The position numbers and the translations under genes are program-made. Positions 6,259 through 32,311 of a stretch of 41,823 nucleotides of DNA are shown here, one piece after another. Each line of letters begins with the position of its first letter. Within the stretch, counting starts at the first letter, position 1. The notes beneath the pieces are model-generated. The model was given only the letters and a program-made list of their open reading frames with translations, searched no databases and was not told the origin of the DNA. Where the stretch lies: the IMG/VR virus record IMGVR_UViG_3300048587_000211, positions 1 through 41,823 of that record; one strand, written 5' to 3'. Source of the DNA: a virus.

Positions 6259-6449
6259 CGGCGCACGAACATAGGCTCTATCGTCGCGTGACTCTTGGCC
6301 GCGTACAACTCGGCCCGGGTCTTGTCGGGTGCCAGGCGGGCCTCGAAGCCGTCGGCATGCGTCACCAGATAGCCGACCAGCACCAGCACCGTGCCGGTGT
6401 GCGGCTCGGCCCCAGACTGCAAGCCGGTGGCGGTGTCGATCGGAATCAC
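6249..6449 (-). CDS. Small hypothetical protein after endolysin, 66 aa
   Basis: The GTG start at 6449 overlaps the endolysin stop (GTGA), so translation is coupled. The sequence begins VIPIDTATGLQSGAEP and is a small mixed alpha/beta protein without a membrane segment. It is the last gene of the minus-strand late transcript. The open frame runs further upstream, but that part is a shadow of the endolysin gene. Function unknown; not obviously a spanin. Confidence 0.5.
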   Translation of the reverse strand: MIPIDTATGLQSGAEPHTGTVLVLVGYLVTHADGFEARLAPDKTRAELYAAKSHATIEPMFVRRPA

Positions 6450-6946: not shown

Positions 6947-7176
6947 TTGCGCGTCACCTTGATAGAGCAGTCGCCGCCGGTCTCGACGGTCCCAGCAGGC
7001 GCATCGGCGCCGACCTGCAGCAACACGGTTCGCACGGTGGCGGTGAACGTGGACACCAGCGTGCACATGACGCTGGTGCCGCCAGGTGGCGCGGCCAGAT
7101 CCGGCGGCGCGGGCTGCGTGGGCACGGTTGAGCAGCCGGCCAGGAGCGCGGCGGCGATGAGCGACAGCAGCCTCAT
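6943..7176 (-). CDS. Small lipoprotein, possible outer-membrane spanin, 77 aa
   Basis: The sequence MRLLSLIAAALLAGC is a textbook lipoprotein signal with Cys15 as the lipidated residue, followed by Ser-Thr (outer-membrane retention) and a Pro-rich stretch. Size, Pro content and location between holin-like genes and endolysin fit an o-spanin (Rz1-like). No partner i-spanin with a single span and coiled coil is visible nearby, so the assignment is tentative. Confidence 0.6.
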   Translation of the reverse strand: MRLLSLIAAALLAGCSTVPTQPAPPDLAAPPGGTSVMCTLVSTFTATVRTVLLQVGADAPAGTVETGGDCSIKVTRK

Positions 7177-7478
7177 ATCCCAACTCCCATGCCGCGCCGG
7201 TCATGATGCGTCGCGCGGCGCGACCGGCGAATGATCTTCACCGCCGTCCCTATGCCATAGATGCACAGCCCGATCTGGGCCATCAGAATCTCGGGCGGTG
7301 TGTACGGGTGCGCGATCTTCTCGGGGATGCGCAGGATGCACGCGATGGCCACCACCGACAGGCCGACGCATTGCATCAGGCTGTCGTCGAAGTGCTTTGA
7401 GAACACGCCCCAGGTCGCAAGGCCGCCCGTGACGATCAGGCAGACCAGCGACAGGATGCCCAGCGGGTAGTCCATCAT
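7173..7478 (-). CDS. Holin-like membrane protein, 101 aa
   Basis: ATG at 7478 overlaps the previous stop (ATGA). Three hydrophobic segments are visible: LGILSLVCLIVTGGLATWGVF (about 6-26), MQCVGLSVVAIACIL (about 35-49) and ILMAQIGLCIYGIGTAVKII (about 64-83), followed by a basic tail (RRSRRATHHDRR). A small protein with three spans and a charged C-terminus beside the endolysin fits a class I holin or its antiholin partner. Which of the two 101-residue proteins here makes the lesion cannot be told from sequence. Confidence 0.6.
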   Translation of the reverse strand: MMDYPLGILSLVCLIVTGGLATWGVFSKHFDDSLMQCVGLSVVAIACILRIPEKIAHPYTPPEILMAQIGLCIYGIGTAVKIIRRSRRATHHDRRGMGVGI

Positions 7479-7780
7479 GGCAGCCACCTCGACATCAGTT
7501 TGTCCAGCACCTTCGCCGGGTCGATCAGCTGCAGGACCTCGAAGCACTTGGCGGCCACAGCCATGCCGAACAGGCCGATCAGGAACCCGGTCAACCCCGC
7601 GTCGGTGCCCATCATGCCGGCCAGATACCCGGTGCCGTAGTAGCTCGCGCCAGCACCGCCAATCAGGGCAGTGATCCGCTGCGGCCATGTGCCCTTGATC
7701 CAGCCGAGCGCCACAAGCGCGCCGACCGTGCCGGGGATGACCTTCAGCACCTCTGGGTGCATTTGATTTGGCTCGGTCAC
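7475..7780 (-). CDS. Holin-like membrane protein, 101 aa
   Basis: GTG at 7780 is chosen: AGGAG lies about 7 nt upstream, and the stretch further upstream is a shadow of the preceding gene. The protein has Gly/Ala-rich hydrophobic segments (VIPGTVGALVALGWI, ITALIGGAGASYYGTGYLAG, GLTGFLIGLFGMAVAA) and ends with a charged helix (DPAKVLDKLMSR). It resembles phage holins and sits first in the lysis block. It overlaps the next membrane-protein gene by 4 bp, as holin/antiholin pairs often do. Confidence 0.65.
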   Translation of the reverse strand: MTEPNQMHPEVLKVIPGTVGALVALGWIKGTWPQRITALIGGAGASYYGTGYLAGMMGTDAGLTGFLIGLFGMAVAAKCFEVLQLIDPAKVLDKLMSRWLP

Positions 7781-7793
7781 GGTGCGGCTCCTG

Positions 7794-17748: not shown

Positions 17749-19680
17749 TCAGGCGCTGAGGTTCGTCGAGACGACGAACGCTTGCGGATAGCGCACCAGC
17801 ACGTCGACCATCCACATGGCGCGGATGCCGACCGTGGCGGTGTTGAAGCGCGTGCCGCCGTTGTCGGTGGCCAGCTCCAGCACGCCCCACTCGCCGATGA
17901 CCATCTCATCCCACGAGCCGAAGATCAGGTTGCCCGAGGCCATCTGTTCCGACGACATGGCGTTGAAGCCGACGCACTGGCCGTCGAGCATGTTGCCAGT
18001 CCACAGCGGCGTGTCGGTGCCGCTGAAGCGCTGCTTCTGCATCAGCACGCTGGCACCCGCGGTGTTGGTGACGAAGCCCGGGTTGCCGCGGATGGCATTG
18101 GCCGCGCCCGCCGTCGACACGAACGCAAGGATCTTGGCGTAGGTGGCTGCGGCTGCATCCTGGCCGGACGCCACCCCAGGGGTGTTCTTGATGCCCATGG
18201 GCTGGGCACCGCCGACGCCGTTGATGGCTGTGTAGTCCACGCCGTCGATGGCGATGTCGGCGGCCAGGTCGGCCATCACGAACGCCTCCATGGCGCCCGA
18301 TGTCTGGCGCAGCGCCTGCTCGGACACATCGGTGATGGCGATGGCCGTCTTTGGCGTCATCGACAGCTGGCCCAGCGCCTGGTCGGCAGCGGTGATGGTG
18401 GCATGCTCGCCGGCCTGCCACGACACCGAGCCTTTGCCCGTCTGGCGCGTCAGGGTGACGTTGCCGACCAGGCCCGGCAGGCGGCGCGCACCCATGCGCA
18501 TGGACACGGATCGGGCGCGCAGGATGTCCAGGAAGCCCATGTTGGTCGTGTCGACCATGTAGCCGCCCTTACCGCCCGGCACCACCGCCATGGCGCGCGT
18601 CGCGGCTTCGCCGAGCGGGCGCTGCAGCACTTCACCCGGGATGAAGATGTTGCCACTGCCTTCGCGCTGCAGGCGCTTGGCCAGCTCGCGCGAGCATTCC
18701 AGCTCGTAGGCGGCGGCGTTGATGTTCTCGGCGGTCGGCGTCTTCATCGCGCGGATCGCGCGGAACAAGCTGAAGCGCTGGGTTTCAGACCGGCTCAGGC
18801 CCAGGTCCGACATCGCGGTCGGGCGGGACTTGCCGCGCTCTTCGATGATCTCCAGGATCTTGCCGGAGACTTCTTCGAGGCGCACGCCGTCACGGCACCA
18901 TTGCTCCTCAATGCGCGAGTCGATCTTGTTCGCGCGGCACAGGTTCGCAATGGCCTGGCGGCGGTCGCGCTCGATCTGCAGCGGGTCCAGCGTGACAGGC
19001 TTCTGTTCCGCGTTGGGCACGCCCGCGGCAGCGTTTACTTGATCGCTCACGGCGATGCTCCTATGAAGAGCCGCAGGTGCGGCGGGGGTGGTAACTTCTG
19101 CGGCGCGCGTTGCGGCCGGCTTGGGTTCGGTGGGTGGCGCTTCGGCATCCGCGGCGCGCACCACGCGCACAGGCTTTGCTGAGTCGTCGGCCTGGCGGCC
19201 AATGCCTACGCCCGCATCGGCGGGAACGGTGCAGACGGAGCCCTCCAGCGGGAGCCAGCGAGTGGCCGTGAAGGTTTCGGTCTTCTTGTCTTCGGTAAGC
19301 TCTTCGATCTCGTAGCCGACTGAGACATTGCGCAGACCGCCGCGGATCATTGCTTCGACCTCTTTGGCGCGCGCCGTATCGAACAGGTGCGCGTCCACGT
19401 ACAGGCGGCCGTCCTTGACGCGGCCACCGTCGATCATTCCGATGGGGTCGTTCCAGTTGTGGTTGAACAGCAGCGGCGCGGCGCCGCCCTTGATGCGGTC
19501 CAGCATCACAGCGCCGTCGCCATGCGACAGCACCTCGCGGCCGAACCAGCGCTCTACCGGCGTCTCGCTGCTCAGCGGGAACGACAGGCGAACAGTGGCG
19601 TCTTCGGTGGTGGCGGCGCGAATCTCGATCTGCGCCGGCTCCATGTCGCGGGACAGGCGCCCAATCTTGATCTCGCTCAT
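17749..19680 (-). CDS. Prohead protease-major capsid fusion, 643 aa
   Basis: One reading frame carries both functions. Residues 1-165 form an HK97-family prohead serine protease: catalytic His74 (LLFNHNW), Ser120 (RNVSVGY) and the family strand WLPLEGSVCTVPADAGV. Residues about 200-320 are charged and helical, as expected for a scaffolding delta domain. From about 330 to the end it is an HK97-fold major capsid protein (GSVSWQAGEHATIT, AITDVSEQALRQ, and the C-terminal NTATVGIRAMWMVDVLVRYPQAF). The protease would cleave itself and the scaffold region free. Overlaps the portal stop by 4 bp. Confidence 0.9.
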   Translation of the reverse strand: MSEIKIGRLSRDMEPAQIEIRAATTEDATVRLSFPLSSETPVERWFGREVLSHGDGAVMLDRIKGGAAPLLFNHNWNDPIGMIDGGRVKDGRLYVDAHLFDTARAKEVEAMIRGGLRNVSVGYEIEELTEDKKTETFTATRWLPLEGSVCTVPADAGVGIGRQADDSAKPVRVVRAADAEAPPTEPKPAATRAAEVTTPAAPAALHRSIAVSDQVNAAAGVPNAEQKPVTLDPLQIERDRRQAIANLCRANKIDSRIEEQWCRDGVRLEEVSGKILEIIEERGKSRPTAMSDLGLSRSETQRFSLFRAIRAMKTPTAENINAAAYELECSRELAKRLQREGSGNIFIPGEVLQRPLGEAATRAMAVVPGGKGGYMVDTTNMGFLDILRARSVSMRMGARRLPGLVGNVTLTRQTGKGSVSWQAGEHATITAADQALGQLSMTPKTAIAITDVSEQALRQTSGAMEAFVMADLAADIAIDGVDYTAINGVGGAQPMGIKNTPGVASGQDAAAATYAKILAFVSTAGAANAIRGNPGFVTNTAGASVLMQKQRFSGTDTPLWTGNMLDGQCVGFNAMSSEQMASGNLIFGSWDEMVIGEWGVLELATDNGGTRFNTATVGIRAMWMVDVLVRYPQAFVVSTNLSA

Positions 19681-21254
19681 GCGTTGTTCCTCAGTGGGAA
19701 GACGCGCGCGGGCCTTGCAGGCACTTCGTCGTCATCGGGTTCTTCGAGCGCAGCAGGCGCAGCAGTCACAGGCGCCACCGGCTCGGCATAGGTGGTGTCC
19801 ACCTCGATGCCGGCCTCGTCGAGCATCTGCAGCTCGCGCTTGCGCGTGGTGATCACGTCTTCGATGTCGCGGCCATCGGCGGTCTGCGCGATGACATCGG
19901 TGACGGTGGTGAAGCCGGCCTTCACCGCCTCCTTGAAGGCGTTGACTTCCTTGGTCGGGTCCACCCAGGACCAGCCGCGCGGCTTGAACAGCACGGCCTC
20001 GTAGCGCGCGCGGTCCAGCGCGTAGGCTTCAACCGGAATCGCACTGACGGCACGCGCCATCACGGCTTGCTGCAGCCAGATGCGATACAGCGGCTCGCGG
20101 AAGCTGCGAATCCACCACTGCTGCAGCGCCTTGTAGCCGTCGCGGTCGTCCAGCAAGGCCAAGCGGCTGCTGCTGTAGTTGGACTGGCTGTAGTCGCGGC
20201 TCAGGCTTTCGTAGCTGGTGCCGATGCCCGCCGCGATCTCGCGCAGCATGGCGCGCATGAAGCCGTCGAAGGCGCTGTTGGGCCGGTTCGGCGCGTGGAA
20301 GTTGAGCTTCTCGCCGGGCCGCAGTTCCTGAATCGTCAGGGGGTCGATGTTCATCATCCCCTGGCCGTCGTCGCCTTCCTCGTCTTGCAACGGGTTGCTG
20401 TATTCAGGCGTTTCGATGGTGGCGAAGTACGCAGCAGAAGCACGAGCCGCGCTGATTTCGTGCTGGCTGTACTCGTTGACATCGTCCAGCTTGCGCACCG
20501 CCGTGTGAAACCACGGCTCGCCACGTGTCTGCGGCCAGCGGGTGGTCAGCTTCAGATGCAGGATCTGCTCGGCCGGTACGCGCTCTACCTTGTCGGGCGC
20601 GTACATCGTGCCGGGCAGCATGTCGCCGGCATTACGCATGCGCAGCCAGTAGGCGGCCGGGCGCTGGAAGCTATCGACCTCGACGCCCATGCGCACTTCG
20701 TGACCCGGCGCCAGCGGTCCCGGCGCAGCGATGCCATCGGCGATCCGCTCGGGCTCGATGACCTCAAGCGACAGCGGCACCTGACTGGAGCCGAAGCGGC
20801 GGAAGTGCAGGCGCACCAGCACGTCACCGGCCTCGACAACGGTGCCGAGAAGCGCGCGCTCCATGTCGCCGAAGTGCAGCGTGCCGCCGGTGTGGCAGTT
20901 GTCGGCGCGGCACCATTCGCGGTGCGCGGCCTCAATGCCGTCATTGACGCGAGCGTTCAGCTCCCCGCGAGTGCCCAGCACTTGAGCTTGCAGGCCGACA
21001 CCGCTGCCGATGATGTTGTTGACGATGACGGCCTTCGCCCGCTTGGCGTAGCCGCTGTCACGCACCATTTGCCGGCTGCGATTGCGCAGCAGCGTCAGCG
21101 AGGTGTTCAGCTCGGCGTCAGCCGATGTGCTGGACCCGCCGAAGTAGCCGGTGGTGTTGGTGTGGCGGGCGCCGCCGTACATGCGCACGGCATGACGAGA
21201 CGGCGCCGAAGTGGCGATCCATCGTGCAATGCGGGCGCGAAGTCCAGGGAGCAT
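19677..21254 (-). CDS. Portal protein, lambda gpB family, 525 aa
   Basis: Forms the dodecameric DNA channel. Recognisable motifs are ARHTNTTGYFGGSSTSADAEL and RNRSRQMVRDSGYAKRA near the N-terminus, LEVIEPERI, and the strongly conserved IGTSYESLSRDYSQSNYSSSR. The C-terminal part PRGWSWVDPTKEVNAFKEAV is also typical. Length suits the family. It lies between the gpW-like connector and the protease-capsid gene, the lambda order. Confidence 0.95.
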   Translation of the reverse strand: MLPGLRARIARWIATSAPSRHAVRMYGGARHTNTTGYFGGSSTSADAELNTSLTLLRNRSRQMVRDSGYAKRAKAVIVNNIIGSGVGLQAQVLGTRGELNARVNDGIEAAHREWCRADNCHTGGTLHFGDMERALLGTVVEAGDVLVRLHFRRFGSSQVPLSLEVIEPERIADGIAAPGPLAPGHEVRMGVEVDSFQRPAAYWLRMRNAGDMLPGTMYAPDKVERVPAEQILHLKLTTRWPQTRGEPWFHTAVRKLDDVNEYSQHEISAARASAAYFATIETPEYSNPLQDEEGDDGQGMMNIDPLTIQELRPGEKLNFHAPNRPNSAFDGFMRAMLREIAAGIGTSYESLSRDYSQSNYSSSRLALLDDRDGYKALQQWWIRSFREPLYRIWLQQAVMARAVSAIPVEAYALDRARYEAVLFKPRGWSWVDPTKEVNAFKEAVKAGFTTVTDVIAQTADGRDIEDVITTRKRELQMLDEAGIEVDTTYAEPVAPVTAAPAALEEPDDDEVPARPARVFPLRNNA

Positions 21255-21306
21255 GGACCCGGATATTTCCGGGTCTCGGCGGGACAGTTCATGCCCAAAC
21301 GTCCCG

Positions 21307-21852
21307 CTATGCGCGGCCCATGCGCACCAGAAGCTTGCGCGGGTTCGGCCGGCCAGCAGCCATCGCGGCAGCGGCCTGTTCGCGCTTCACCGCGGCTGTC
21401 CAATGGCTGATCACCGCGATGATGTCGGCGGGGCTGTTGAATTCCATTTCGCGGCCGGCGATCTTGTAGCGCTTCTGGGTCGGCACCCAGGCGGCCAGCG
21501 CGGCGTTGGCATCGTCCAGCGCCTTCTGCGCTTGGCTGCGCGTGTCCACGCCGCCAGAAGCCCCCACCAGGCCGGGGCGCACTTCGACTTGACCCGACTC
21601 GACGGTGTAGCGCTCGCCGCCCTTCACGGCCCACAGGTGGAAGCCATAGGCTCCGGTGGCCCATGTGGTCGTTGCCGCCGCCGACACCTGTACCAGATGG
21701 TCGTCGCCGCTGGCCGTGCTGTTGATGGATTGGGCTGTGCCACCAGAACGCGGGTTGAGCAGCAGCTGCAGCGACCAGCCATCGCCCGCCGGGTAGTCGC
21801 CAGCCTCGGCGATGTAGTTGAGCGTTTCGCCTTGAATGATGATGTTCTGCAT
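21307..21852 (-). CDS. gpW-like head-tail connector with N-terminal beta domain, 181 aa
   Basis: Residues about 105-181 resemble lambda gpW: ALAAWVPTQKRYKIAGREME, then NSPADIIAVISHWTAAVKRE and a basic tail. gpW-type proteins complete the portal vertex, and this gene directly precedes the portal gene. Residues 1-100 are an added beta-sandwich-like domain (GDGWSLQLLLNPRSGG, WATGAYGFHLWAVKGGERYT). I recall this two-part arrangement beside portal genes in other proteobacterial phages, so it is probably a family feature rather than a local fusion. Confidence 0.7.
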   Translation of the reverse strand: MQNIIIQGETLNYIAEAGDYPAGDGWSLQLLLNPRSGGTAQSINSTASGDDHLVQVSAAATTTWATGAYGFHLWAVKGGERYTVESGQVEVRPGLVGASGGVDTRSQAQKALDDANAALAAWVPTQKRYKIAGREMEFNSPADIIAVISHWTAAVKREQAAAAMAAGRPNPRKLLVRMGRA

Positions 21853-21854
21853 GG

Positions 21855-23465
21855 TCAGCTCCTGAGCGTGTTTCCGATGCGGCGCCGGATACGCTGCAGC
21901 CTGATGCGCAGCGGCGTGCGCGTGAACTCGGCGGGTTCTGTGACCGACAGTTGCCCGGCAGCCGAGCCCTCCCCTTGTGCATCGCCATCCAGCGCAACGC
22001 CACTCGACATCGATCCGCCGGCCGTCGCTTCCGCCGCAGCGCTGCCGACAAGGCCGATCGTCAGGGACAGCGCACCAGTACCGGATGCCGCGCCAGCACC
22101 AGCGCCGGCCAGCTGCACCACGCCGTCGAAGCTCGCGCCGGCCGTCGCCTGGGCCACCGCGGCGCCGGACAGGTTGACCGTGATCGACAGCCCGCCGGCA
22201 GCTGCAGCGACAGCCTGCGCGGCAGCGCTGATCGGGATGGCGATGCTGAGCGCAGCCGCCGCCGATGCAGAGCCCGCCGCGGCGCCGGAAAGGGGCACGC
22301 CGTGGGTCATGGTGGCGGACGCCGCGGCCTGCCCAGCAGCCGAACCCGACAGGCTGACCGTACCGCTGAAATCGGCCGATGCCGTGGCCTGCCCGACCGC
22401 GCTGCCGGCCAGCGGAACCTGCAGGCTCAGGCCGCCAGCAGCGGCAGCTTGGGCAGCAGCATCAGCCGACAGCGTGACCGACACCGAAAGCCCGCCGCCG
22501 GCCGTCGATACACCCACTGCGGCGCCGGCCAGCGGCACGCCATGCGACAGGCTGCCGGAAGCGGTTGCAGCGCCCGCCGCGGTGCCGTCCAGCGCCACCG
22601 CGAGGCCAGAACGAGCGGCCACGCTCATGCCGTAGGCCCACGGGTAGTAGATCCCCGCGAAGCCTTGATCGGCGAACCAGTGCGGCGGCTCGACGCGCGG
22701 CATGGACAGCGCCATCTCCGGGTTGCTGGCTGCCGTCAGGTCGCCGGTGGCCGTCGCTTGCCCGGCAGCAGCGCCCGCAACGGGCACGCCATGAGACAGG
22801 GCGCCCGTTGCGGTGGCCGCCGCCGTCGCGGCGCCGGCAAGATCTACGGGAGTGCTGCCTCCGATGTCGCCGAATGCGAACTTGGTGAACTGCACCTGAT
22901 TGGCCGTGCCCTGCGAGGCGCCAATGCACGCATAGGGGCCGCTGTTGACGGCCGTCCCGGGGTTGTTGGTCAGCGTCGCATCGGGTCCGCGGCCATCCCA
23001 GGTGCTCGCGTCCGTGGGCGCGTCCGCAGTGATGTTCGACCACAGACGCACCTCGGTCGCCGAGCCGGTGCCGTCAACGATGATCCCGACGCTTTCGCCC
23101 GAATAGAAAGGAGCGCCGGGCAGACCCCCCGATGTCTGGATGCCGGTGGAGCTGGTGCCGACGTTGGGCTTGTAGCCCCACTCCACGGTGCCGGCGTTGC
23201 CGTCCACGTAGAAGACGTAATAGCCGGACGATGAATTGGTGTAGCGCAGGCACCCGAGCGGGTATTGAAAGTCCGTCGTGCCTGAAACCATCTTCAGGTA
23301 CTGCGTGGCGCCAGAAAGCGAGGTCGAGTGCTTGAGGACAGTCTCGACCCAGCCGCCCGCGGTGATGCGCAGCTTGTCGGACGACACATCAGCCGACCCC
23401 TGCTCGGCGCTGAACGCGCCCGGCAGAGCGCCGGTGCCGGAGAATGTGACGACTACGTCGGTCAT
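21855..23465 (-). CDS. Jelly-roll protein with 13 Ala-rich 20-residue repeats, 536 aa
   Basis: Residues 1-200 look like a concanavalin/laminin-G type beta sandwich (GGWVETVLKHSTSLSGATQY, GYYVFYVDGNAGTVEWGY, ESVGIIVDGTGSATEVRLWS). From residue 207 a strict 20-residue repeat begins each unit with V-x-L-x-G (for example VPLAGAAVGVSTAGGGLS): two copies at 207-246, a 43-residue insert, then eleven copies at 290-509. A basic tail follows. Such regular small-residue repeats suit a fibrous or solenoid stalk. It stands between the gpW-like and beta-helix genes, an unusual place for a surface fibre. Function unknown. Confidence 0.65.
   Translation of the reverse strand: MTDVVVTFSGTGALPGAFSAEQGSADVSSDKLRITAGGWVETVLKHSTSLSGATQYLKMVSGTTDFQYPLGCLRYTNSSSGYYVFYVDGNAGTVEWGYKPNVGTSSTGIQTSGGLPGAPFYSGESVGIIVDGTGSATEVRLWSNITADAPTDASTWDGRGPDATLTNNPGTAVNSGPYACIGASQGTANQVQFTKFAFGDIGGSTPVDLAGAATAAATATGALSHGVPVAGAAAGQATATGDLTAASNPEMALSMPRVEPPHWFADQGFAGIYYPWAYGMSVAARSGLAVALDGTAAGAATASGSLSHGVPLAGAAVGVSTAGGGLSVSVTLSADAAAQAAAAGGLSLQVPLAGSAVGQATASADFSGTVSLSGSAAGQAAASATMTHGVPLSGAAAGSASAAAALSIAIPISAAAQAVAAAAGGLSITVNLSGAAVAQATAGASFDGVVQLAGAGAGAASGTGALSLTIGLVGSAAAEATAGGSMSSGVALDGDAQGEGSAAGQLSVTEPAEFTRTPLRIRLQRIRRRIGNTLRS
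21939..22598 (-). repeat. Eleven 60-bp coding repeats
   Basis: Encodes residues 290-509 of the preceding gene as eleven in-register 20-codon units with anchors (V/I)-x-L/I-x-(G/A) every 20 residues, beginning at residues 290, 310, 330 and so on to 490. Units differ in the middle six to eight residues, so the array is old or selected for variation rather than freshly duplicated. Confidence 0.75.
22728..22847 (-). repeat. Two further 60-bp repeats of the same family
   Basis: Encodes residues 207-246 (VDLAGAATAAATATGALSHG and VPVAGAAAGQATATGDLTAA). They share phase and consensus with the eleven-unit array, and a 43-residue Trp/Tyr/Pro-rich insert separates them from it. Confidence 0.7.
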
Positions 23466-23468
23466 CGC

Positions 23469-24824
23469 TCAGGCCACCTCAAAGGCCCCAGCGGACCACT
23501 TGCCTTCGCGGCTCGTGCCGTCTGGATCGACGTTGTATGGGCTGTTGCCGACATCGATCCCCGCGCCATCGGCCTGGCTGCCGCCGACAATGCGGAAGTC
23601 CTTGTTGGCGCGATCAACGAACGGGTCAACCGTCGCGGTCAGGTTGTTCGACGCGGTGTTGGCGCTGACACCTGTAGACGCCGAGTTGTAGAACAGGTTG
23701 TTCCTCGCCTCGTTGCCCGACCCGCCGCTGAGCAGGATCATCGAATAGACCGACGAGTCTGCGATGTCCACGAAGGTGTTGTTGAACACCTTGCAGTTCT
23801 GCGCGGAATCGGACCAGCCGCCGCCGCCGAAGAAGATGCAGGAGTTGCGCCCGCCGGACTTGCTGTTCAGAAAGACGTTGCCGTAGATCAGGTTGCCGGT
23901 CGGGTCGCTGCCGCCGAAGGCGCCGATCTCCGCGGTGAGCCCCGATGTGCCGTCGTTCGGGTCCGTCTGCGTGGAGTCCCAGAATCGGCAGTACCGGACG
24001 GTCATGTTGTTGATGCCGACGTTGGGACCAGCGATAGCTTCCTTGCCCCAGCCCATCGAGAAGTGGCAGTGCTCGAACACCAGGCCATTCGAGCCGTGCG
24101 CGTACACCAGGGCGCCGACACCGTTGTGGATCGCACACCGAGAGAACGTGATGTTGGTCTGGTTGTAGACCAGATAGAGCACGCTGCCGTATGTGGCGAT
24201 TGTCCCTGAGCTTGGATTCGTCGCCCATGTCGCGCCAATATCGATGTACTTGAACAGGCTGTTGGCCGCGCTTTCGCTCGCGCTGCTGTTCGATGAAATC
24301 GAAGTCGCCCGCATGCCGTAGCCGGCCGGCGCACCCCAGATGTACGACTCGGTGCGCTCGGAGCCGTCCATCACGAAGTAACCGCGCGCCACCGTGATGC
24401 TGCCGAACACCACCTGCGTCGAGGCGTATGAATCGCTCCAGCCGGTGTCGGTGCCGTGAATGGCCGGGGTTGCCTTCTTGAACCGCACCACCTGCGTGCC
24501 GCTGGTGTTGTCGTCGAAGGTGTAGCCGCCGTAGGAGCCACCCGCGAACCAGTAAGTGGTGTCTCGACTCAGTGTGGCCGGGATCGACGTGTAGGCGTTC
24601 GTCCAGTCGTTGCCGCTGCCCGAGCCAGAGGCCCCGGCGCGCACGTACTTCTGGTTCGTGGTCGGGGCGTCGTCAGTCTCCCCGGCGTCTACGGTAAGCG
24701 CGCCGGCTACCGTCGCGGCTGCCTGAGAGACACCGGCCAGCGCGACGAATTGCGGCGACCCTGAAACTTGCCGGCCGCGTGTACGCGTGCGGGAGACCGA
24801 AGCCCGCAGCGGCCGGCGCAACAT
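23469..24824 (-). CDS. Right-handed beta-helix protein, 451 aa
   Basis: ATG at 24824 overlaps the preceding stop by one base (TGATG). Residues 60-451 show the pectate-lyase-like parallel beta-helix pattern with repeated Asn/Ser turns: NQTNITFSRCAIHNGVGALV, NNMTVRYCRFWDS, NLIYGNVFLNSKS, NCKVFNNTFVDIAD, NEARNNLFYNSAS. It ends DPDGTSREGKWSAGAFE, a typical closing motif of these folds. Many phage proteins of this type are glycan-binding or depolymerising tailspikes. Residues 27-46 contain one copy of the 20-residue Ala-rich unit found in the neighbouring protein. Catalytic residues cannot be assigned. Confidence 0.75.
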   Translation of the reverse strand: MLRRPLRASVSRTRTRGRQVSGSPQFVALAGVSQAAATVAGALTVDAGETDDAPTTNQKYVRAGASGSGSGNDWTNAYTSIPATLSRDTTYWFAGGSYGGYTFDDNTSGTQVVRFKKATPAIHGTDTGWSDSYASTQVVFGSITVARGYFVMDGSERTESYIWGAPAGYGMRATSISSNSSASESAANSLFKYIDIGATWATNPSSGTIATYGSVLYLVYNQTNITFSRCAIHNGVGALVYAHGSNGLVFEHCHFSMGWGKEAIAGPNVGINNMTVRYCRFWDSTQTDPNDGTSGLTAEIGAFGGSDPTGNLIYGNVFLNSKSGGRNSCIFFGGGGWSDSAQNCKVFNNTFVDIADSSVYSMILLSGGSGNEARNNLFYNSASTGVSANTASNNLTATVDPFVDRANKDFRIVGGSQADGAGIDVGNSPYNVDPDGTSREGKWSAGAFEVA

Positions 24825-25264
24825 CAGCCCACCACTTCTTCGACGGTCATGTTCAGCACCACGTTGGACGTGCCCGCCGCGCTGCGGATGCTGATCTGCC
24901 CACCGACCGGGACAGAGATTTCCGCGCCGGGGATGGCAATCCAGGGGTCGATGCCGCCATTTGCGTTCGGGGCGAAGCGGTGCAGCACAACCCCAGCGGT
25001 CGGCTGCGCGCTCCATGTCGTGTAGACGAGGAAGGACGCCGCGCCGTCGCCGGAGTTGACCGGCGTTGGCGTGATTGCGCCGCCGCCAGTGGTGCCACCG
25101 CTTGAGCGCATCAGCATCACTTCGTTGGCGGCGCTGGCCGTGCCCATGCCGGCCAGCTTGGCGAACAGGATGCGCAGCGGCTTGTTCGAGGAAGCGACGA
25201 TCGTCACCAGGTCATTGCTGGTGGACAGCGCCGCAGAGGTTCGGGTGATGTTGTAGACGGGCAT
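24824..25264 (-). CDS. Small beta-rich virion-like protein, 146 aa
   Basis: Begins MPVYNITRTSAALSTSNDLV and continues with alternating strands (RILFAKLAGMG, ANEVMLMRSSGG, SFLVYTTWSAQPTAGVVLHRF, DPWIAIPGAEISVPVGGQIS) to NVVLNMTVEEVVG. No membrane segment or signal. The compact beta fold and position among putative surface proteins suggest a decoration or trimer-forming virion protein. I recall similar proteins in other phage genomes without a known role. Confidence 0.6.
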   Translation of the reverse strand: MPVYNITRTSAALSTSNDLVTIVASSNKPLRILFAKLAGMGTASAANEVMLMRSSGGTTGGGAITPTPVNSGDGAASFLVYTTWSAQPTAGVVLHRFAPNANGGIDPWIAIPGAEISVPVGGQISIRSAAGTSNVVLNMTVEEVVG

Positions 25265-25274
25265 GAGGCGTCCT

Positions 25275-27176
25275 TCAGGTAGTCAGAATCCGGGCAGGCC
25301 CGATGTAGCGGCGCGAGACAACCAGGTTGCGCAGCCACCAGTACATGTCGTGATCGGCCGGCTTGGTGCCGCCGTGGTAGGCCATCGTCCACAGGCCGCG
25401 AATGCCCATCAGCGGATGCCGGAAGAAGGCCAGGTCATCGCGGCCACCAATGGGCACGCCGTCGAGCCAGGACCACAGCCGGCCGTCGTTGTTGGCGGTG
25501 CCGTTGCCCGCCGCGTCCGGGTTGCTCAGGTCGATGCTGTTGATGCGGCAGTAGCTCTCGAAGGTCACCCACCGGCCCGCCGGAATGCAGCGGTCCTGCC
25601 CGCGCGTGCCGACGCGCACGTTCTGTTCGTTGCCGTACAGGCCGCCATCGCGCAGCGTGTCGTAAGGGCCAAGGTGCGACGGCGCATAGCCCACAGCGAT
25701 GGCGCCGGGGTAGGCGTTAAATTCCGGGTGCGGCATGCCAAGCGTGTGGCCGCGGATCGACTGGCCTTCGCAGATGTACTGCGTGCCGTCCCACCAGGCT
25801 CCGCCGCTGGACTTGATCTGGCCGGCACCGTAGCCGTAGGTGGAGTCAATCAGCCAGCCGCCGTCTGGCAGGCCCTTGCCGTAGCGCAATTCAAAGCCGA
25901 TGGGCGAGAACTTGAACCCGTAGGTGCGCGACCAGAAGCTGTCGGGCTCCAGGAAGATCTCGCAGCGCAGGTACAGCTCTTTTTCAAGGCCCACCGGCGA
26001 CGGCAGGAACCCGTTGTCCGGGTCGGCGCGCTGCCATGACTTCTTCCACTCTCCGCCGCCCGACAGCTTGGGCTGCTTGGCGATGCAGGTGCGCATCATG
26101 TAGCGCCCAGGGTGGTCAGGGTCCGGGTGCACCGAGGTGCGCTCGTACTGCGCCGGGATCATAGACACGTAGTCGAACAGGCCAGCCTCGCGGCCCTTCT
26201 TGACCAGGATGTTGTCGGGCTGCGATTTGCCGGGCGTGCCGTTCCAGTTCGATTCGCGCAGGTCTCCGGCCAGCAGCACGTCGGGATGGCCTGGCAGGTT
26301 TTCCTCGCCGACTTCCATCGCCAGGCCGTACACCGGCGCCTGCCCTGCCCCGCCCAGCAGCAGCGGCGGTGCGTCGGTCTCGAACACCGACAGCACCAGC
26401 GGGTATTGATCGTCGCTGCTGTTCGCGTGCAGCCGCATCACGGCGCGTTCGACGGTCGGCAGATCCTGCAGGCCGTGGAAGTGGATCAACTGGCGGTAGC
26501 GCCGGTCCATCAGGGCCGACACATCACAGCTCATCGCGGCTGGCGGGTTCTTGGCGCTGGCGGTGGCCGGCGTGAACACGGCCAGGTCGCCGCGCAGCAC
26601 GTGTTCCGCGCCGTCGCTGGTCACCACCAACTGCGGCGGGTTGTCGCCGTGCGTGCCGCACCATGTGACCTTCGCGTTGGCGTGCGTCTTGGGCGTGGTC
26701 ATGAAGAACGCGCCGCGGTTCTCGCCGGCATGCCAGCGCTGGGCCAGCTCGGTGATGTCCAGGTCCACGTAGCCAGCAGTCCCGGCAGGCACGGCCAGCG
26801 TGTACCAGGGGTCGGCGCCTTGCTCGATGCCGGCGCGGTCCAGCCAGTCGCCGTTGACGCGCTTCCAGCGCAGTTGAACCGCGCCGTTGAAAACGATGGC
26901 GCTCGGGCCGCTCTTGACCACATGGTTCGGCCAGATGCGGTACGAGCCCGGCGCGGGTACGGGCACAGGCGAGTAGCCGCCGGCCGGGGCGGGGGCTGGT
27001 GCTGGCGGCGGCACGGGGGTCGGCGCTGGCGCAGGAGCTGGCGGCTCAGGCTCCGGGGCGGGTGCGGGTGCGGGGGTAGGCGCCGGCACTTCCAGCGACG
27101 CAGCAATCCCCTGCAGCTCGGCCGCAGCGCCCTGCAGGCCGGCCGCCAGCGCGCGCAGGCGATCCGGGGCGGCCAT
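25275..27176 (-). CDS. Polysaccharide-lyase-like jelly-roll protein with Pro linker, 633 aa
   Basis: Residues 1-28 form a helix, 30-78 a Pro/Ala linker (PAPAPAPEPEPPAPAPAP), and about 80-200 a beta domain (YVDLDITELAQRWHAG). Residues about 300-633 resemble the concanavalin-like fold of alginate/heparin-lyase-type proteins: ELYLRCEIFLEPDSFWSRTY, RYGKGLPDGGWLIDSTYGYG, GRWVTFESYCRIN, and the closing WWLRNLVVSRRYIGP characteristic of such folds. It could be a depolymerase or glycan-binding protein; active-site residues are not assignable. No export signal, so probably virion-borne. Confidence 0.65.
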   Translation of the reverse strand: MAAPDRLRALAAGLQGAAAELQGIAASLEVPAPTPAPAPAPEPEPPAPAPAPTPVPPPAPAPAPAGGYSPVPVPAPGSYRIWPNHVVKSGPSAIVFNGAVQLRWKRVNGDWLDRAGIEQGADPWYTLAVPAGTAGYVDLDITELAQRWHAGENRGAFFMTTPKTHANAKVTWCGTHGDNPPQLVVTSDGAEHVLRGDLAVFTPATASAKNPPAAMSCDVSALMDRRYRQLIHFHGLQDLPTVERAVMRLHANSSDDQYPLVLSVFETDAPPLLLGGAGQAPVYGLAMEVGEENLPGHPDVLLAGDLRESNWNGTPGKSQPDNILVKKGREAGLFDYVSMIPAQYERTSVHPDPDHPGRYMMRTCIAKQPKLSGGGEWKKSWQRADPDNGFLPSPVGLEKELYLRCEIFLEPDSFWSRTYGFKFSPIGFELRYGKGLPDGGWLIDSTYGYGAGQIKSSGGAWWDGTQYICEGQSIRGHTLGMPHPEFNAYPGAIAVGYAPSHLGPYDTLRDGGLYGNEQNVRVGTRGQDRCIPAGRWVTFESYCRINSIDLSNPDAAGNGTANNDGRLWSWLDGVPIGGRDDLAFFRHPLMGIRGLWTMAYHGGTKPADHDMYWWLRNLVVSRRYIGPARILTT

Positions 27177-27184
27177 GACCTCGC

Positions 27185-27712
27185 CTAGTTGTCAATTTGT
27201 ACGGTAAGCGCGCCGCCGGCAAAGCTTACGGCGTCGCCGCTGTTGATCGTCTTGCTGGCGGTCAGCACAGCGCAGATCAGCAGGTTGCCGCTTGAGCTGG
27301 CGTCATACAGCCCCCAGTGCGTGACGGTGCCCCAGCCGGCGCTCGGCGTGGCGAAGTTGATCGCACTGCTGTTGCTAGTGGTGCCGCCGGTGCCGCTTGA
27401 CGCGCCGGTGCCGCTGGATTGGGTATTCGCCCAGTTGGTGCCGTTGCTGGTGATGCTGGGGCGCGCGTAGCTGCCGCCGGAGACCTCGGTGCCACCGGCC
27501 GAGTCGCTGCACGAACTGGTGAACAGCGCAACGTAGATGGTGCCCGGCGCGGTGTAGGCCGTGCCGCGAAACACATGGTCGATGAGCTTGTTTTCGAGGT
27601 AGTCGCTCAGCGCGGCGGCTTGCGCTTGCGGCGCGAGCGGCGCAAGGGCGACGCCGGCCGCAACCGAGGCGAGGCCGCGGAGGAACCAACGGCGGGAGGT
27701 ACTGAAGTTCAT
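27185..27712 (-). CDS. Tail-fibre-like domain with Tat signal peptide, 175 aa
   Basis: ATG at 27712 has a good ribosome site (GGAAGGA). Residues 1-32 form a complete twin-arginine signal: TSRRWFLRG with R7-R8, the hydrophobic stretch LASVAAGVALAPLA, and AQA before a likely cleavage after residue 32. The rest is a known phage-type domain (YLENKLIDHVFRGTAYTAPG, IYVALFTSS, GWGTVTHWGLYDASSSGNLL, ALTVQI) normally without a signal. A Tat leader predicts export of the folded protein from the lysogen or infected cell, odd for a virion protein. Whether it is secreted or the leader is only an N-terminal extension cannot be told here. Confidence 0.75.
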   Translation of the reverse strand: MNFSTSRRWFLRGLASVAAGVALAPLAPQAQAAALSDYLENKLIDHVFRGTAYTAPGTIYVALFTSSCSDSAGGTEVSGGSYARPSITSNGTNWANTQSSGTGASSGTGGTTSNSSAINFATPSAGWGTVTHWGLYDASSSGNLLICAVLTASKTINSGDAVSFAGGALTVQIDN

Positions 27713-27726
27713 GGCATTCCTTCCTG

Positions 27727-27747
27727 AAAAGGGTCTTGGGTAGACCC
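27727..27747 (-). terminator. Intrinsic terminator between regulator and surface cassette
   Basis: On the minus strand GGGTCT-ACCCA-AGACCC forms a 6-bp stem with 5-nt loop followed by TTTT. It lies between the Mor-like gene and the Tat-tagged gene, 15 bp before that ATG. It could stop or attenuate transcription coming from the terminase genes, making the downstream cassette dependent on readthrough or antitermination. Confidence 0.6.
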
Positions 27748-27776
27748 GGCAAGGGTGCCGACGCTGTGCGTGACAG

Positions 27777-28085
27777 TTAAGGCCCAATCGTCCCGCGTCG
27801 CCTCATGCGGCGTACTAGGCTGGGGTCTACGCCCTCTCGCTTGGCGATGGCCGCCGCAGGCTCCCCAGCATCAAGCGCCACCGTGATGCGCTTTCTGGAC
27901 TCGGCCCGTTCTACTATGTTCCCCTGCGGGACATAGACCCATTCGCCGCCGCACACCGAGGCCGCAATCGAATAGATCGTGCCCACCATCGCCATGTAGG
28001 CGACATCCGGCTCCGGGCTGTCGCGCGTCAAGTGCTCGGCCAGCCGATGGGCGAAGGCGTGGAATAGCGACTTGGCGAGATTCAT
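27777..28085 (-). CDS. Mor-like transcription activator, 102 aa
   Basis: ATG at 28085 overlaps the terminase stop by one base. The C-terminal half resembles the Mor/C activator family of Mu-like phages: GGEWVYVPQGNIVERAESRK, then an HTH at about 70-95 (VALDAGEPAAAIAKREGVDPS). Mor-type proteins activate phage promoters as dimers. The N-terminal half has a dimerisation-like helix (KSLFHAFAHRLAEHL). Its placement after terminase and before a terminator is unusual; control of the neighbouring cassette or late genes is inference. Confidence 0.65.
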   Translation of the reverse strand: MNLAKSLFHAFAHRLAEHLTRDSPEPDVAYMAMVGTIYSIAASVCGGEWVYVPQGNIVERAESRKRITVALDAGEPAAAIAKREGVDPSLVRRMRRRGTIGP

Positions 28086-29893
28086 CACATCATCCGACCG
28101 CGGACGCGGCGGCGGGGGGGTGCTTTGGGCGGCGGCGGCTGTTCCGCAACTTCGTCCGAAACGGCCGCCGACTTCGCGCGCCGCGCCCGGTCTACGCCCA
28201 GCATCCTGGCCGCTGCCGCAGCGTAGGCGTCGCAGTCGAGCGCGTGGTTTTCCCGGTCGTGGCGCTTCCAGATGGTCTTCCCGCTGGGCAACGTGATCTT
28301 CGATTCGGCGATGACTTGTTTCGCGTAGTCGTCGCTGATGTCTGTTGGCAGGTGCCACGCGCCCGGCTGATCCTGTGGCCAGTCGATTCGGGAATGCACC
28401 AACCCCTTGAAGTAGCCGCTGTCAACGTGCCACAACTGCTGCCCGTTCTTGATGACGGCCCCGCGGTGGGTCACATCGACGCGGGACATACGAACCGGGG
28501 ATGAAAGCGATTCCTGACCCTTCGACGGCGCGGCGCGCAGGTCTGGATTTGCCCGGCAGAAGGCATAGACCGCTTCAGGTCGGTAGCCAGAATCGATGAA
28601 CGTCTGCCGGATGCTCTTCCCGCCGTACTCGGTGGCCAGCACATCGCCGAGCCGCGCCCACACTTCGGGCTTATCGGTTTCGCCGAACAGCACTCCGAAC
28701 TCAATGAGCCATGAGGCCATCTCGTAGCCCCATCCCCGGACAACGTAGTAGATGCGATCCTTCTGCACGTCGCAGCCGGCGGTCAGCACCAGCGCGCCGT
28801 CGGGGACTTCGCCGGAGCTGTATTCAGAGCGGAGTTGCAGGACTCGGTCATGCGTTGGGACTTCGCCGCGTTCGACCCACGTTTCACCAAGCGCCGTGTT
28901 GACCCAGGTCTGCAGGGTCTCAGGCGAGCGCTTGGCATCGACAAACGCGGCGGCCGTGTCGCCGAAGCTCACCCACGGCGAATACAACTCGTTGATGTGG
29001 AACCCTGCGACGCCGTCTGAATCGGCCGATGCCGTCCACTCGCCACGAGCCAGCATCTGCTGCTTATGTCTGTCCAAGATGATGCCGCCGCAGTGCGGGC
29101 AAGCGTAGTAGGCGCCACGCGGGTTGCCATCTGGCCATCGCACGTTCGGCCACTGCAGGCGGTCCATCTCTTCGCAGTGCGGGCACGGCACGAGGTAGTA
29201 CCGCTGATCGCTGACATCGAACGCGGCTTCAATCCGACTCGCCCCCTTTACGGTCGGCGTCGACCCCATCAAGAGCTTGCGATTCCAGAACGTGGTGGAC
29301 CGCTTTCGCGCGAGTCCAATCGGGTCGCCCTCGGTGCCGGCGCTGGCCGGGTAGCGGTCCACCTCATCGAACAGTACGATGCGGATCGGGCGCGAAGCAA
29401 GCCCGGCCGGCGAATTGGCGCCAGCGATGGTGATGTGCCCGCCGGCAAAGGACTTGTGCAGCAGCGTGTTCCCGCTGTCCCTCGATCGCGCATCCTTGAT
29501 GCGACCACGCAGCGCAGGCGTGTCTCGGATCATCGGGGCAAGCCTGTCCTTCGACCAGGCTTCTGCCATCTCCAGCGTGGGCTGCACCAGCAGGATCGGC
29601 GCCGGATCGCGGTCGACGTGGAAGCCGACGACGTTGCCCAGAATCTCTGTCCACCCGATCTGCGCGGATTTCATGACCACGATTTCGCGCACCAGCAGGT
29701 CGCTGATCGCGTCCATGATCCCGCGCTGATATGGCGCGCGCGCAGTGACCCATCGGCCCGGCTCGGCCGCGCTTTCAGGCGACAGGCGTCTTTCGATGTC
29801 TGCCCACTCGCTTACTGTCAGGCGCGGTGGCGGCCTTGTCGCTTGCCGCGCCACGCTCACGACGCGCGCGAGTGCGACTGTCGAGTCCATCAT
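28085..29893 (-). CDS. Terminase large subunit, GpA family, 602 aa
   Basis: ATPase and nuclease that packages DNA. Walker A-like KSAQIGWT (75-82) and Walker B IVLFDEVD (172-179, with Asp176-Glu177) are clear. TTFWNRKLLMGSTPT and two CPHC pairs (PCPHCEEMD, ACPHCGG) match the GpA family, and the nuclease half includes LTAGCDVQKDRIYYVV and ENHALDCDAYAAAA near the C-terminus. It overlaps the small subunit gene by 119 bp. Length fits the family. Confidence 0.95.
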   Translation of the reverse strand: MMDSTVALARVVSVARQATRPPPRLTVSEWADIERRLSPESAAEPGRWVTARAPYQRGIMDAISDLLVREIVVMKSAQIGWTEILGNVVGFHVDRDPAPILLVQPTLEMAEAWSKDRLAPMIRDTPALRGRIKDARSRDSGNTLLHKSFAGGHITIAGANSPAGLASRPIRIVLFDEVDRYPASAGTEGDPIGLARKRSTTFWNRKLLMGSTPTVKGASRIEAAFDVSDQRYYLVPCPHCEEMDRLQWPNVRWPDGNPRGAYYACPHCGGIILDRHKQQMLARGEWTASADSDGVAGFHINELYSPWVSFGDTAAAFVDAKRSPETLQTWVNTALGETWVERGEVPTHDRVLQLRSEYSSGEVPDGALVLTAGCDVQKDRIYYVVRGWGYEMASWLIEFGVLFGETDKPEVWARLGDVLATEYGGKSIRQTFIDSGYRPEAVYAFCRANPDLRAAPSKGQESLSSPVRMSRVDVTHRGAVIKNGQQLWHVDSGYFKGLVHSRIDWPQDQPGAWHLPTDISDDYAKQVIAESKITLPSGKTIWKRHDRENHALDCDAYAAAAARMLGVDRARRAKSAAVSDEVAEQPPPPKAPPRRRVRGRMM

Positions 29894-30374
29894 CAGACAA
29901 CTCCCCCAACGCTTCGATAATTTCCGCCTCTATGAGCGCCGCTGCCTGCACGTCAGATGCTGCGCCGCGCACCCTTGGCGCTGATTTCGTGGGGATCGCC
30001 AGCAGCCGCTGCCGCATCGCGCCCAACATGCGCGCCCACTCCGCAGAGATGACCTCCACCAGCACCATTTCGCCCTGAAGCTCCATCGTTTCCAGGCGTG
30101 TTTTGATCTTCTCTAGCGCCGTCCGGTCAGCCTGCTCTTTTGTCAGCCTCGCGCGCTCCGTCTCATAGTCATAGCGCTGCCCCTCTGCGTCGACACCAAC
30201 GCCTTTCAGATGCCGACGCTTAAGCCATTCCCCATACTCCTTTGGTGGGTAGCCGTTAGCCCCTTTGGGCGGCGGGTCGGCCGACTTCACCAGCGACTGC
30301 ACGCCCTGGACGGTCAATCCAGCCAGGTCTGCGGCCTGCGCCTGATTAAGTGCTGCGACTATCTTCCCTGACAT
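29775..30374 (-). CDS. Terminase small subunit, Nu1-like, 199 aa
   Basis: Recognises the packaging site and recruits the large subunit. The N-terminus carries an HTH-like segment (LNQAQAADLAGLTVQGVQSLV, PKEYGEWLKRR) as in Nu1-type proteins, followed by a long charged helix (ETERARLTKEQADRTALEKI) and a region AEWARMLGAMRQRLLAIPTK common in these subunits. The basic C-terminal tail is encoded in the overlap with the large subunit gene. No ribosome site is obvious upstream of 30374. Confidence 0.8.
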   Translation of the reverse strand: MSGKIVAALNQAQAADLAGLTVQGVQSLVKSADPPPKGANGYPPKEYGEWLKRRHLKGVGVDAEGQRYDYETERARLTKEQADRTALEKIKTRLETMELQGEMVLVEVISAEWARMLGAMRQRLLAIPTKSAPRVRGAASDVQAAALIEAEIIEALGELSDDGLDSRTRARRERGAASDKAATAPDSKRVGRHRKTPVA

Positions 30375-30494
30375 ACCAAATTGTTAGTAAGCGCTATCGC
30401 TAGGAGAATGTCGCGCCGCAATGGACCGGCGATGGGTGCCGCCATGTAAGGACCCGCTAACTTAATGGCGCGCATGTCGCTTGAGGCCGCGCCG

Positions 30495-30695
30495 TCACGC
30501 CTTGTCATCGCGCAAGAACTCGATCTCCGCGGGCTGGTTGAGCAGTTCGTAGTAGGCAACCTGTACCTTCGCGGACTGGATCATCTTCCCGGCGATGTTC
30601 GCGAGCTCCGCGGCCTCGTCGACGGTTATTTCGCCTTTGCGCAGCTGCTGGAACACGTTCGACAACTCATTTCTCATCAGCTTGCAGTTCTTCAT
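30495..30695 (-). CDS. Small helical protein, 66 aa
   Basis: A strong ribosome site (TAGGAGAG) precedes the ATG at 30695, inside the 3' end of the previous gene. The sequence is two helices (NELSNVFQQLRKGEITVDEA and AELANIAGKMIQSAKVQVAYYELL). I recall similar short proteins upstream of terminase in other phages, usually annotated hypothetical. It begins a patch of noticeably lower GC. Function unknown. Confidence 0.65.
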   Translation of the reverse strand: MKNCKLMRNELSNVFQQLRKGEITVDEAAELANIAGKMIQSAKVQVAYYELLNQPAEIEFLRDDKA

Positions 30696-31179: not shown

Positions 31180-31553
31180 GCACTCCTTGCAGTGGTGCTT
31201 TGGCCTCCCGCCTCGATTTTTTTCGGAAAGCCAGACAGAGCCTTACGAGTAAGGCACTTGCTGCAGACCTTGCCATTCATTTGGAGGTCCAACAAAACAG
31301 CTTTGTTCTTCGCCGCCGCCAAGCCTTCGCAGCCGCAATGGGGCTTAAGCTCTCCATCCCGATACCTCGGTCGGTCCATGTAGCGCATCGGACCGCCATC
31401 GCACCGAGGGCATGTCCACAGGCGGCGCTGCCACCCAGTGAGCGCGTGATATGCGACTACGTGCCCGTCGAATATCACGCCTCGCCCAACTAGCGACCTG
31501 TACGCCGCCTCGTGCTTGCGCCGTTTGGTGTCGTATGACTTCCGCTTTGTCAC
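31176..31553 (-). CDS. N-terminal part of a split zinc-ribbon protein, 125 aa as read
   Basis: ATG at 31553 overlaps the upstream gene by 4 bp. Cys pairs are seen at 48/51 (CPRC), 73/75 (CGC) and 97/100 (CSKC). After Pro110-Lys-Lys the read frame continues with low-complexity residues (IEAGGQSTTARSA) and stops. A -1 shift at the A7 run (31217-31223) instead gives NRGGRPKHHCKEC, completing the fourth Cys pair and joining the downstream frame. Either a programmed frameshift, a real mutation or a homopolymer sequencing error explains this. Confidence 0.65.
   Translation of the reverse strand: MTKRKSYDTKRRKHEAAYRSLVGRGVIFDGHVVAYHALTGWQRRLWTCPRCDGGPMRYMDRPRYRDGELKPHCGCEGLAAAKNKAVLLDLQMNGKVCSKCLTRKALSGFPKKIEAGGQSTTARSA
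31217..31223 (-). promoter_or_regulatory. A7 run: putative frameshift site
   Basis: Minus-strand codons read CCG AAA AAA ATC. Slipping back one base on the second AAA makes the next codon AAT and opens the downstream frame to 30667. The preceding base is G, so a tandem slip tolerates one first-position G-U pair. The completed CxxC pattern is the strongest evidence that both frames form one protein. Confidence 0.55.
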
Positions 31554-32311
31554 CGACCACCCCTCTGCGCCAGCCTAGCCACATGCTCATCAAACGAGCG
31601 CTTGATCTCTCTCTGCAGGATCTGCGGCACAGTGCTGCGGGCGCGATCTGCAAGTGACGTAGTCCGCCGGTAGCGCACGCTGCGCTCGTAAGAGAAGATC
31701 ATCTTCACGGTCCCGTCGCGCTGCTTAGCGTAGATGCCTGGGGTGAGCTTCTCCGTTGGCCTAAGCACAGCGATGAACTCGCGCCCTGCCTTGATCGCCG
31801 ACTGAGCCCGGCGCTGCGCCGAAGCCGAGATGACGCGCCGATACCCAGCGTTGACTACGCCGCCCGCAAGCTGGGTCAGCACCTGCACAAGCACTTGACG
31901 GCGCACGTTGCCGAATGAGTCTCGCGCAGCGTTGTCGGTGGGCAGCGCATACATGCCAGGCGGCATCGACCCTTGAGCAATCAGCGCCCGCTCAAACTTC
32001 TTGTGCTCCCGCCCGCCACCGAACTCAAGCGGCTTCAGGTATTCCGATGGCGGCGTGCCGTTTGGAACATCGTCGCGCATCGAAACCGTGACAACCAGAT
32101 CATTAGCCGTCGCCATCTTGACGCTCGGCGCGTTGGTGGTGAGCGCTGTTGGGCGGTCAACCTTCGCTTGCAGCTCGGCCCTCCATTCCTGCCGAACGGC
32201 GTATCCACTGCGCGTCAGTGCCGTAGCCAATGCCGCCGCGAACCGCCTATCGCTGAAGGACGCGAACTGCTGGCGCAGTTGGTCCATGCCGTTGACCTTG
32301 ACTTGAATCAT
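31550..32311 (-). CDS. Minor tail protein Z-like, 253 aa
   Basis: Starts MIQVKVNGMDQLRQQFASFS, with RFAAALATALTRSGYAVRQEW, a pattern shared by lambda gpZ/HK97 gp10-type tail completion proteins. The C-terminal half (SFGNVRRQVLVQVLTQLAGG, TVKMIFSYERSVRYRR) fits that family. Such genes normally sit beside tail terminator or connector genes; here it lies upstream of terminase, coupled to a lipoprotein gene. The tail role is inferred from similarity of the N-terminal pattern. Confidence 0.6.
   Translation of the reverse strand: MIQVKVNGMDQLRQQFASFSDRRFAAALATALTRSGYAVRQEWRAELQAKVDRPTALTTNAPSVKMATANDLVVTVSMRDDVPNGTPPSEYLKPLEFGGGREHKKFERALIAQGSMPPGMYALPTDNAARDSFGNVRRQVLVQVLTQLAGGVVNAGYRRVISASAQRRAQSAIKAGREFIAVLRPTEKLTPGIYAKQRDGTVKMIFSYERSVRYRRTTSLADRARSTVPQILQREIKRSFDEHVARLAQRGGR

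Follow-up and report, generated by a model that had tools for sequence, protein, structure and literature searches.

Genes of the cassette

The DNA analyzed here, referred to as the window, is the 41,823-nucleotide virus record IMGVR_UViG_3300048587_000211 (positions 1 to 41,823 of that record), which is of a temperate siphophage type with an integrase, a RecE-like exonuclease, replication genes and a minus-strand late operon. Five genes at 21855-27712 lie in this operon between terminase and portal, and the first of them encodes a fibre protein of the Gp80 family that carries a predicted signal peptide. An earlier note, made from the letters alone, had given these five genes at these coordinates and in this order as a surface-protein cassette of about 6 kb; coordinates and order were right, the gap from TerL to the gpW-like gene measures approximately 6.2 kb, and the surface- or glycan-type character of the encoded proteins was supported.

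All five genes are on the minus strand. The Gp80 gene (27185..27712) has a ribosome-binding site (AGGAAGG) ahead of its ATG, and its product begins with a Tat-like (twin-arginine translocation) signal peptide (SRRWFLRG...AQA) followed by a domain with a cysteine pair at domain residues 34 and 113. This domain, described before as fibre-like, does belong to a fibre family and is more exactly Gp80: PF23140 matched at 1.5e-46 (158 bits against a cut-off of 27, which makes it a family member) and PDB chain 8jou_a at 1.5e-15. The next gene (25275..27176) encodes a 633-amino-acid protein with an N-terminal helix, a Pro/Ala linker, a DNRLRE/CBM-type beta domain (residues ~100-186) and an uncharacterised C-terminal region. 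It had been called lyase-like, a label for which we found no sequence support, as no lyase was matched in Pfam or PDB and residues 100-186 gave just sub-threshold DNRLRE/CBM-type matches (PF06848, 1.2e-7; NF033679, 6.6e-7; DNRLRE/CBM96-type scores of 32.0, 14.4 and 29.5 bits under cut-offs of 33.9, 26 and 34, respectively). Structure prediction, which the earlier note had proposed, was of use for one protein and not for another: the AlphaFold model of the 633-residue protein had a pLDDT (predicted local distance difference test) of 27 and was unusable for fold, while that of the 146-residue beta-sandwich protein encoded next (24824..25264) reached 79.6. The latter gave 44 viral-protein fold matches at E<1e-3; its PDB fold matches were mostly weak capsid jelly rolls and were judged uninformative.

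The fourth gene (23469..24824) encodes a right-handed beta-helix protein (PF13229, 1.7e-6) with a single Ala-rich repeat-like segment close to its N-terminus. A beta-helix protein had been expected here, with a start at 25016; the real start is 24824, with an ATG that shares bases with the stop codon of the gene before it. The last gene (21855..23465) encodes a 536-residue protein consisting of an N-terminal domain of about 200 residues, lectin-like by appearance only, then 13 Ala-rich repeats of 20 residues, as the earlier mention of Ala-rich repeats had anticipated, and an Arg-rich C-terminus. Eleven of the repeats (V-x-L-x-G-x-A-x-G-x-A-x-A-x-G-x-L-S) are in tandem at exact 20-residue spacing (21933..22592, residues 292-511), and a repeat scan placed two further copies at 22841-22722. 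Known families do not cover this protein and a sequence comparison with PDB chains gave no meaningful match. Repeat proteins of this type often end in short Arg-Arg-aromatic-x-Val motifs (GRRYEV DAAGRRWEV), for example at L182 10013-11044, L196 10827-12362 and L183 9912-11321 (related loci are given L numbers), and such ends may be an assembly tail.

Predicted signal peptide of Gp80

The distribution of the leader was followed in two samples, a first one of 110 usable Gp80s from viral contigs, phages and bacterial genomes, and a second one for which approximately 1,300 whole genomes were searched with the Pfam model and repeats of the first sample were excluded. The signal and cysteine counts omit three loci (L027, L118, L013) in which no domain-start motif could be located, and treat the second domain of the tandem Gp80 in L161 as a cytosolic form. 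Lengths in the first sample were bimodal, with a leader of 14-35 residues in 24 of the 110 proteins and a start 0-4 residues before the domain in the others; a simple signal rule was satisfied by 5.3% of the other genes in the Gp80 loci. Both samples together, window included, yielded 43 leaders, mostly of 23-38 residues. All have a basic start, and the leaders show a hydrophobic core, almost no acidic residues and an AxA-like motif at fixed distance. This n-region, h-region and AxA pattern, kept in homologues across the 43 loci, is that expected of exported proteins. Nearly all of them have this site two residues short of the domain, so predicted cleavage would leave the same N-terminus as in the cytosolic form.

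The RR-x-F-L motif of the Tat type is present in the window and in L004, and most other leaders look Sec-type. Over 28 codons the leaders of the window and L004 differ by nine synonymous and five non-synonymous changes. The Tat-like tag that the earlier note had pointed out belongs to a widespread and replicated export signature, although, as discussed below, models of the Tat motif score it under their cut-offs. In the open-licence literature we found no report of an exported Gp80 or of Tat signals on phage fibres. Tandem Gp80 domains, in one frame or in neighbouring genes and without signal peptides, were seen in four Betaproteobacterial genomes (L134, L150, L161, L169).

Cysteine pairs and linkage to the repeat protein

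The presence of a leader was closely accompanied by cysteines in the Gp80 domain. Exactly two domain cysteines were found in 23 of the 24 leader forms of the first sample and two in 3 of 86 cytosolic forms, none of these three sharing the columns of the exported forms. The second sample behaved alike (at least two cysteines in 19/19 leader forms versus 0/25 others), so that over both samples at least two cysteines occur in 42 of 43 exported and 3 of 111 cytosolic forms. The pairs occupy several position sets (34+113/114/116, 39+101, 33+99, 36+118, 34+105/106, 26+109), those of the first sample having one residue at 33-39 and the other at 99-118. Related Gp80 sequences are not independent, hence p-values overstate the association, and the exported or cytosolic label needs about eight changes on the tree; the recurrence of different cysteine pairs is the stronger argument.

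A 20-residue-repeat protein was encoded in 19 of the 24 leader-form loci of the first sample versus 14 of 87 other loci, and the five leader-form loci lacking it are mostly short contigs or are cut close to Gp80. In the second sample it was present in 15 of 18 longer regions.

The cassette in related phages

By TerL the nearest isolates are the Roseobacter phages CRP-406 and CRP-811 (46-47% identical) and the Rhodobacter phage RcKemmy (41%). The lambda-type head operon of CRP-406 and RcKemmy (TerL, gpW, portal, fused protease-capsid) resembles the window backbone (TerL 41-47%, portal 28-35% identical). In all three isolates, however, TerL is followed by one gene and then the portal, the five-gene insert being absent, and in CRP-406 and CRP-811 the fibre genes are located after the tail tip.

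When the 633-residue protein was used as query, nothing matched in the phage collection or genome contigs, and three viral contigs (L002, L003, L004) were found. They carry the module as Gp80, the 633-residue homologue (78-93% identical), a small protein, the beta-helix protein and the repeat protein, L004 being cut off. Best shared segments of the cassette proteins are 78-97% identical to the window; in L003 the beta-helix protein reaches 84% and the N-terminal region of the 536-residue protein 97.5%. The backbones are another matter: TerL and portal of L002 are 30% and 26% identical to those of the window, and L003 has TerL and portal of another type altogether. The cassette follows the capsid gene in L002, L003, L004 and L010, the last of which encodes a 61% identical homologue of the 146-residue protein adjoining the beta-helix gene. 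In L037 and L038 the portal gene is separated from protease/capsid by Gp80 and fibre genes, and a comparable module lies between tail tube and tape measure in L020 and L022. Gp80 comes after baseplate J in Firmicutes myophages and before terminase in Mu-like prophage loci. Gene calls in these loci were simple calls and many of the viral contigs are fragmentary.

Because highly similar cassettes occupy other sites in unrelated phage backbones, the location seen here, with terminase on one side and portal on the other, is just one of several landing sites and not a head-specific arrangement. The survey of gene order, another check proposed earlier, agreed with the note in that cassettes related to this one were not located behind the tail genes. 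The head-attached system that the note had suggested was not supported, given that the position wanders as far as baseplate J, and we rejected head-specific attachment as a conclusion for that reason.

The DNA itself is shared with L003 in two blocks, 24740-22744 (95% identical) and 22537-21955 (88%). As these blocks start and stop inside Ala-rich repeat segments, the sequence suggests that the repeats may serve as recombination points for domain swapping. Other prophage cassettes hold differing enzyme-like proteins at the swap position, and in one of them (L181 8623-9873) the sequence there is, by eye, glycoside-hydrolase-like. Outside the cassette, the lysis region and a portion of the tip gene (window positions 6302-7791 and 8808-9388) show 87-91% DNA identity to the L003 phage (L102), the head genes of which are unrelated; this points to inter-phage exchange, perhaps among phages that share a host.

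Surrounding late operon

In the direction of transcription the late operon reads TerS, TerL, a small helix-turn-helix (HTH) gene, the five cassette genes, a gpW-like protein, portal, fused protease-capsid, neck proteins, tail tube, tape measure, tip protein and lysis genes. All are on the minus strand and tightly packed, with stop/start overlaps such as TGATG at 24826-24822 and TGACCATG before 21852. TerS (30374-29775) matched phrog_57 (6e-21). TerL of the GpA type (28085..29893; PF05876, 1e-95; PF20454, 7e-69; phrog_15, 8e-243) is the upstream border of the insert, and its stop is overlapped by the start of the HTH gene (27777..28085; HTH_38, 1.8e-4, under the curated cut-off). A gene of similar size trails TerL in L024 and L037. 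The downstream border is the head-tail joining protein (21307..21852), which profile matches (phrog_5774, 6.4e-32; phrog_118, 2.6e-7) assign to the gpW type. The portal (19677..21254; PF05136, 1.4e-94) and the fused protease-capsid (19680-17749) follow. No promoter-like site was found on the minus strand across 21200-30500, and Rfam and tRNA scans of the window gave no matches.

At the tail end the tip protein is followed by a 182-residue gene and then the lysis genes, and no fibre gene was recognised there; in the phages of L002 and L003 a large tip protein likewise leads to lysis-type genes. The cassette is therefore the sole recognised fibre-like gene set in the window. Upstream of the terminase genes lies a gene for a minor-tail-like protein (31550-32311; phrog_1924, 4e-49), and in CRP-406 a 'minor tail protein' occupies the matching position.

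Comparison with known fibre modules

Among the closest known systems is fibre I of the Ralstonia podophage GP4 (gp80, PDB 8JOU), the domain of which is homologous to window Gp80 (1.5e-15 by sequence, 7e-26 by profile). GP4 gp80 differs in that it starts MAASTYTENN without a signal and has no cysteine in the aligned chain, and in that GP4 is a podophage. Fibre I is reportedly a multi-protein assembly in which an elongated rope protein holds the Gp80 units, and it is said to sit at the capsid edges near the tail vertex. By analogy the 536-residue repeat protein could be such an elongated partner; with no meaningful PDB match by sequence, it can be called an analogue of the rope protein at most. 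In LUZ24/GP4-type podophages (phiM5, Venkman, BcepMigl) Gp80 comes after capsid and tail-tube/adaptor genes and before fibre genes, as a cytosolic form with no cysteine pair in the aligned copies, unlike the window, and most of these loci are without a repeat protein. The phiM5 copy is annotated as detected in particles.

The Alishewanella siphophage LSH1 encodes, as gp34-36, a Gp80-type dimeric fibril, a beta-helix adhesin/depolymerase with a poorly predicted spacer and an Ig-fold protein (PMC13243795). These are inherited together and were detected in virions by mass spectrometry, while their adhesin/fibril role is a model only and their homology to GP4 was by HHpred alone (E 0.0075); the term 'signal peptide' is absent from the main text of that paper (PMC13243795). 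By gene content and description the window is alike, encoding together a fibril (Gp80), a PF13229 beta-helix and a modelled beta-sandwich, but the LSH1 module is located downstream of the lysis module. On this basis the cassette seems to have a precedent as a variant of the gp34-36 kind, with the predicted export of Gp80 as its new feature.

Proposed role and alternatives

We consider it probable that the cassette serves adhesion to the host surface, as an exchangeable module of the GP4 fibre-I or LSH1 gp34-36 kind in which Gp80 has turned periplasmic and disulfide-bonded. The module, its mobility, the signal peptide, the cysteine pair and the repeat linkage are features of the sequence itself. 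The parts would be the Gp80 fibril, an elongated 20-residue-repeat protein with an N-terminal binding-type domain, and interchangeable glycan-type domains (the DNRLRE/CBM-like protein, the beta-helix and the small beta-sandwich) presumed to bind glycans, all within a late structural operon and able to land at several points of it. At 43 of the sampled loci, that of the window included, Gp80 would be sent to the periplasm, by Tat here and by Sec elsewhere, where signal peptidase would restore the N-terminus of the cytosolic form and a disulfide would stabilise the protein. It would most likely be kept in the periplasm up to lysis and act thereafter at the cell surface with the virion-side repeat protein; its assembly with the virion at that moment is a guess. 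The lysis genes found directly ahead of Gp80 in L108 and L112 also speak for this role. We hold only tentatively, and as a rather doubtful proposition, that a branch of tailed-phage fibre proteins is secreted, with Gp80 maturing in the periplasm through a disulfide and joining virions only at lysis with the repeat scaffold.

Several observations weigh against the role proposed for Gp80. The export signal is on this protein only; none of the other cassette proteins has one at its start, so that contact between Gp80 and the cytosolic parts would have to wait until after lysis. Some cassettes (L003, L022, L037) have a cytosolic Gp80, and export is thus not needed for the module. The window Tat match lies under the curated cut-offs (Pfam 19.3 versus 22.7 bits, NCBIfam 14.3 versus 16.7), and a phylogeny control left just two independent contrasts on well-supported branches, with the expected direction in most pairings. 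Export is predicted from sequence, and incorporation of the exported Gp80 into virions is conjecture.

An exported Gp80 might also never enter the virion. It would then be made late, remain in the periplasm or at the surface and cover receptors or glycans of the host, which would prevent progeny from adhering to debris or shut out superinfecting phages; the other cassette proteins would be ordinary virion fibres. A signal peptide and cysteine pair within a structural operon would fit this, as would the location of Gp80 directly behind envelope-acting lysis genes in L108 and L112 and the cytosolic version in phages where Gp80 is a virion protein, as with the phiM5 homologue. The linkage to the 20-residue-repeat protein and the shared mature N-terminus point instead to retained fibre contacts, and no receptor or glycan target is known; we regard masking as possible, though not likely. 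It is unlikely that Gp80 is an ordinary virion fibre assembled in the cytoplasm, with the hydrophobic N-terminus as an assembly or membrane-contact segment and the cassette as a relocated tail or neck fibre operon. GP4 gp80 and LSH1 gp35 are indeed virion proteins (LSH1: PMC13243795), and the large J-like proteins of the tail tip in the L002 and L003 phages (L101 ~2885-6340 and L102 ~2566-5952, both minus strand) also start with signal-like hydrophobic segments, e.g. MLRAAALLLALLPAAAWADP, which bears on how the Gp80 leader is read. Against this, the fixed AxA, the scarcity of acidic residues, the basic start in 43/43, the RR in the window and L004 and the co-occurring cysteine pair are export traits.

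The head-module neighbourhood of most cassette relatives would agree with a fibre attached to the capsid edges near the tail vertex, as in GP4, but the module between tail tube and tape measure in L020 and L022, and Gp80 after baseplate J in myophages or before terminase in Mu-like prophage loci, make this quite improbable. Expression from the prophage as lysogenic-conversion genes with no part in virion assembly, to which the integrase and the many homologues in bacterial genomes might point, is very improbable in view of the missing minus-strand promoter-like site and the tight stop/start overlaps with structural genes.

Significance

Tailed phages are thought to assemble their particles in the cytoplasm. 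A recurrent, apparently exported and cysteine-paired branch of fibre proteins raises the question of whether a part of the particle matures outside the cytoplasm or a fibre subunit has been turned into a host-envelope tool, and either answer would be new as far as the literature we found. Were the exported Gp80 added to virions at lysis, the assembly of tailed-phage particles would include a step in the periplasm. For annotators, the exported Gp80, the 20-residue-repeat protein and the interchangeable glycan-type domains together make a recognisable prophage module, one that is found mainly in betaproteobacterial prophages, moves from one phage type to another and may determine interactions with the host surface.

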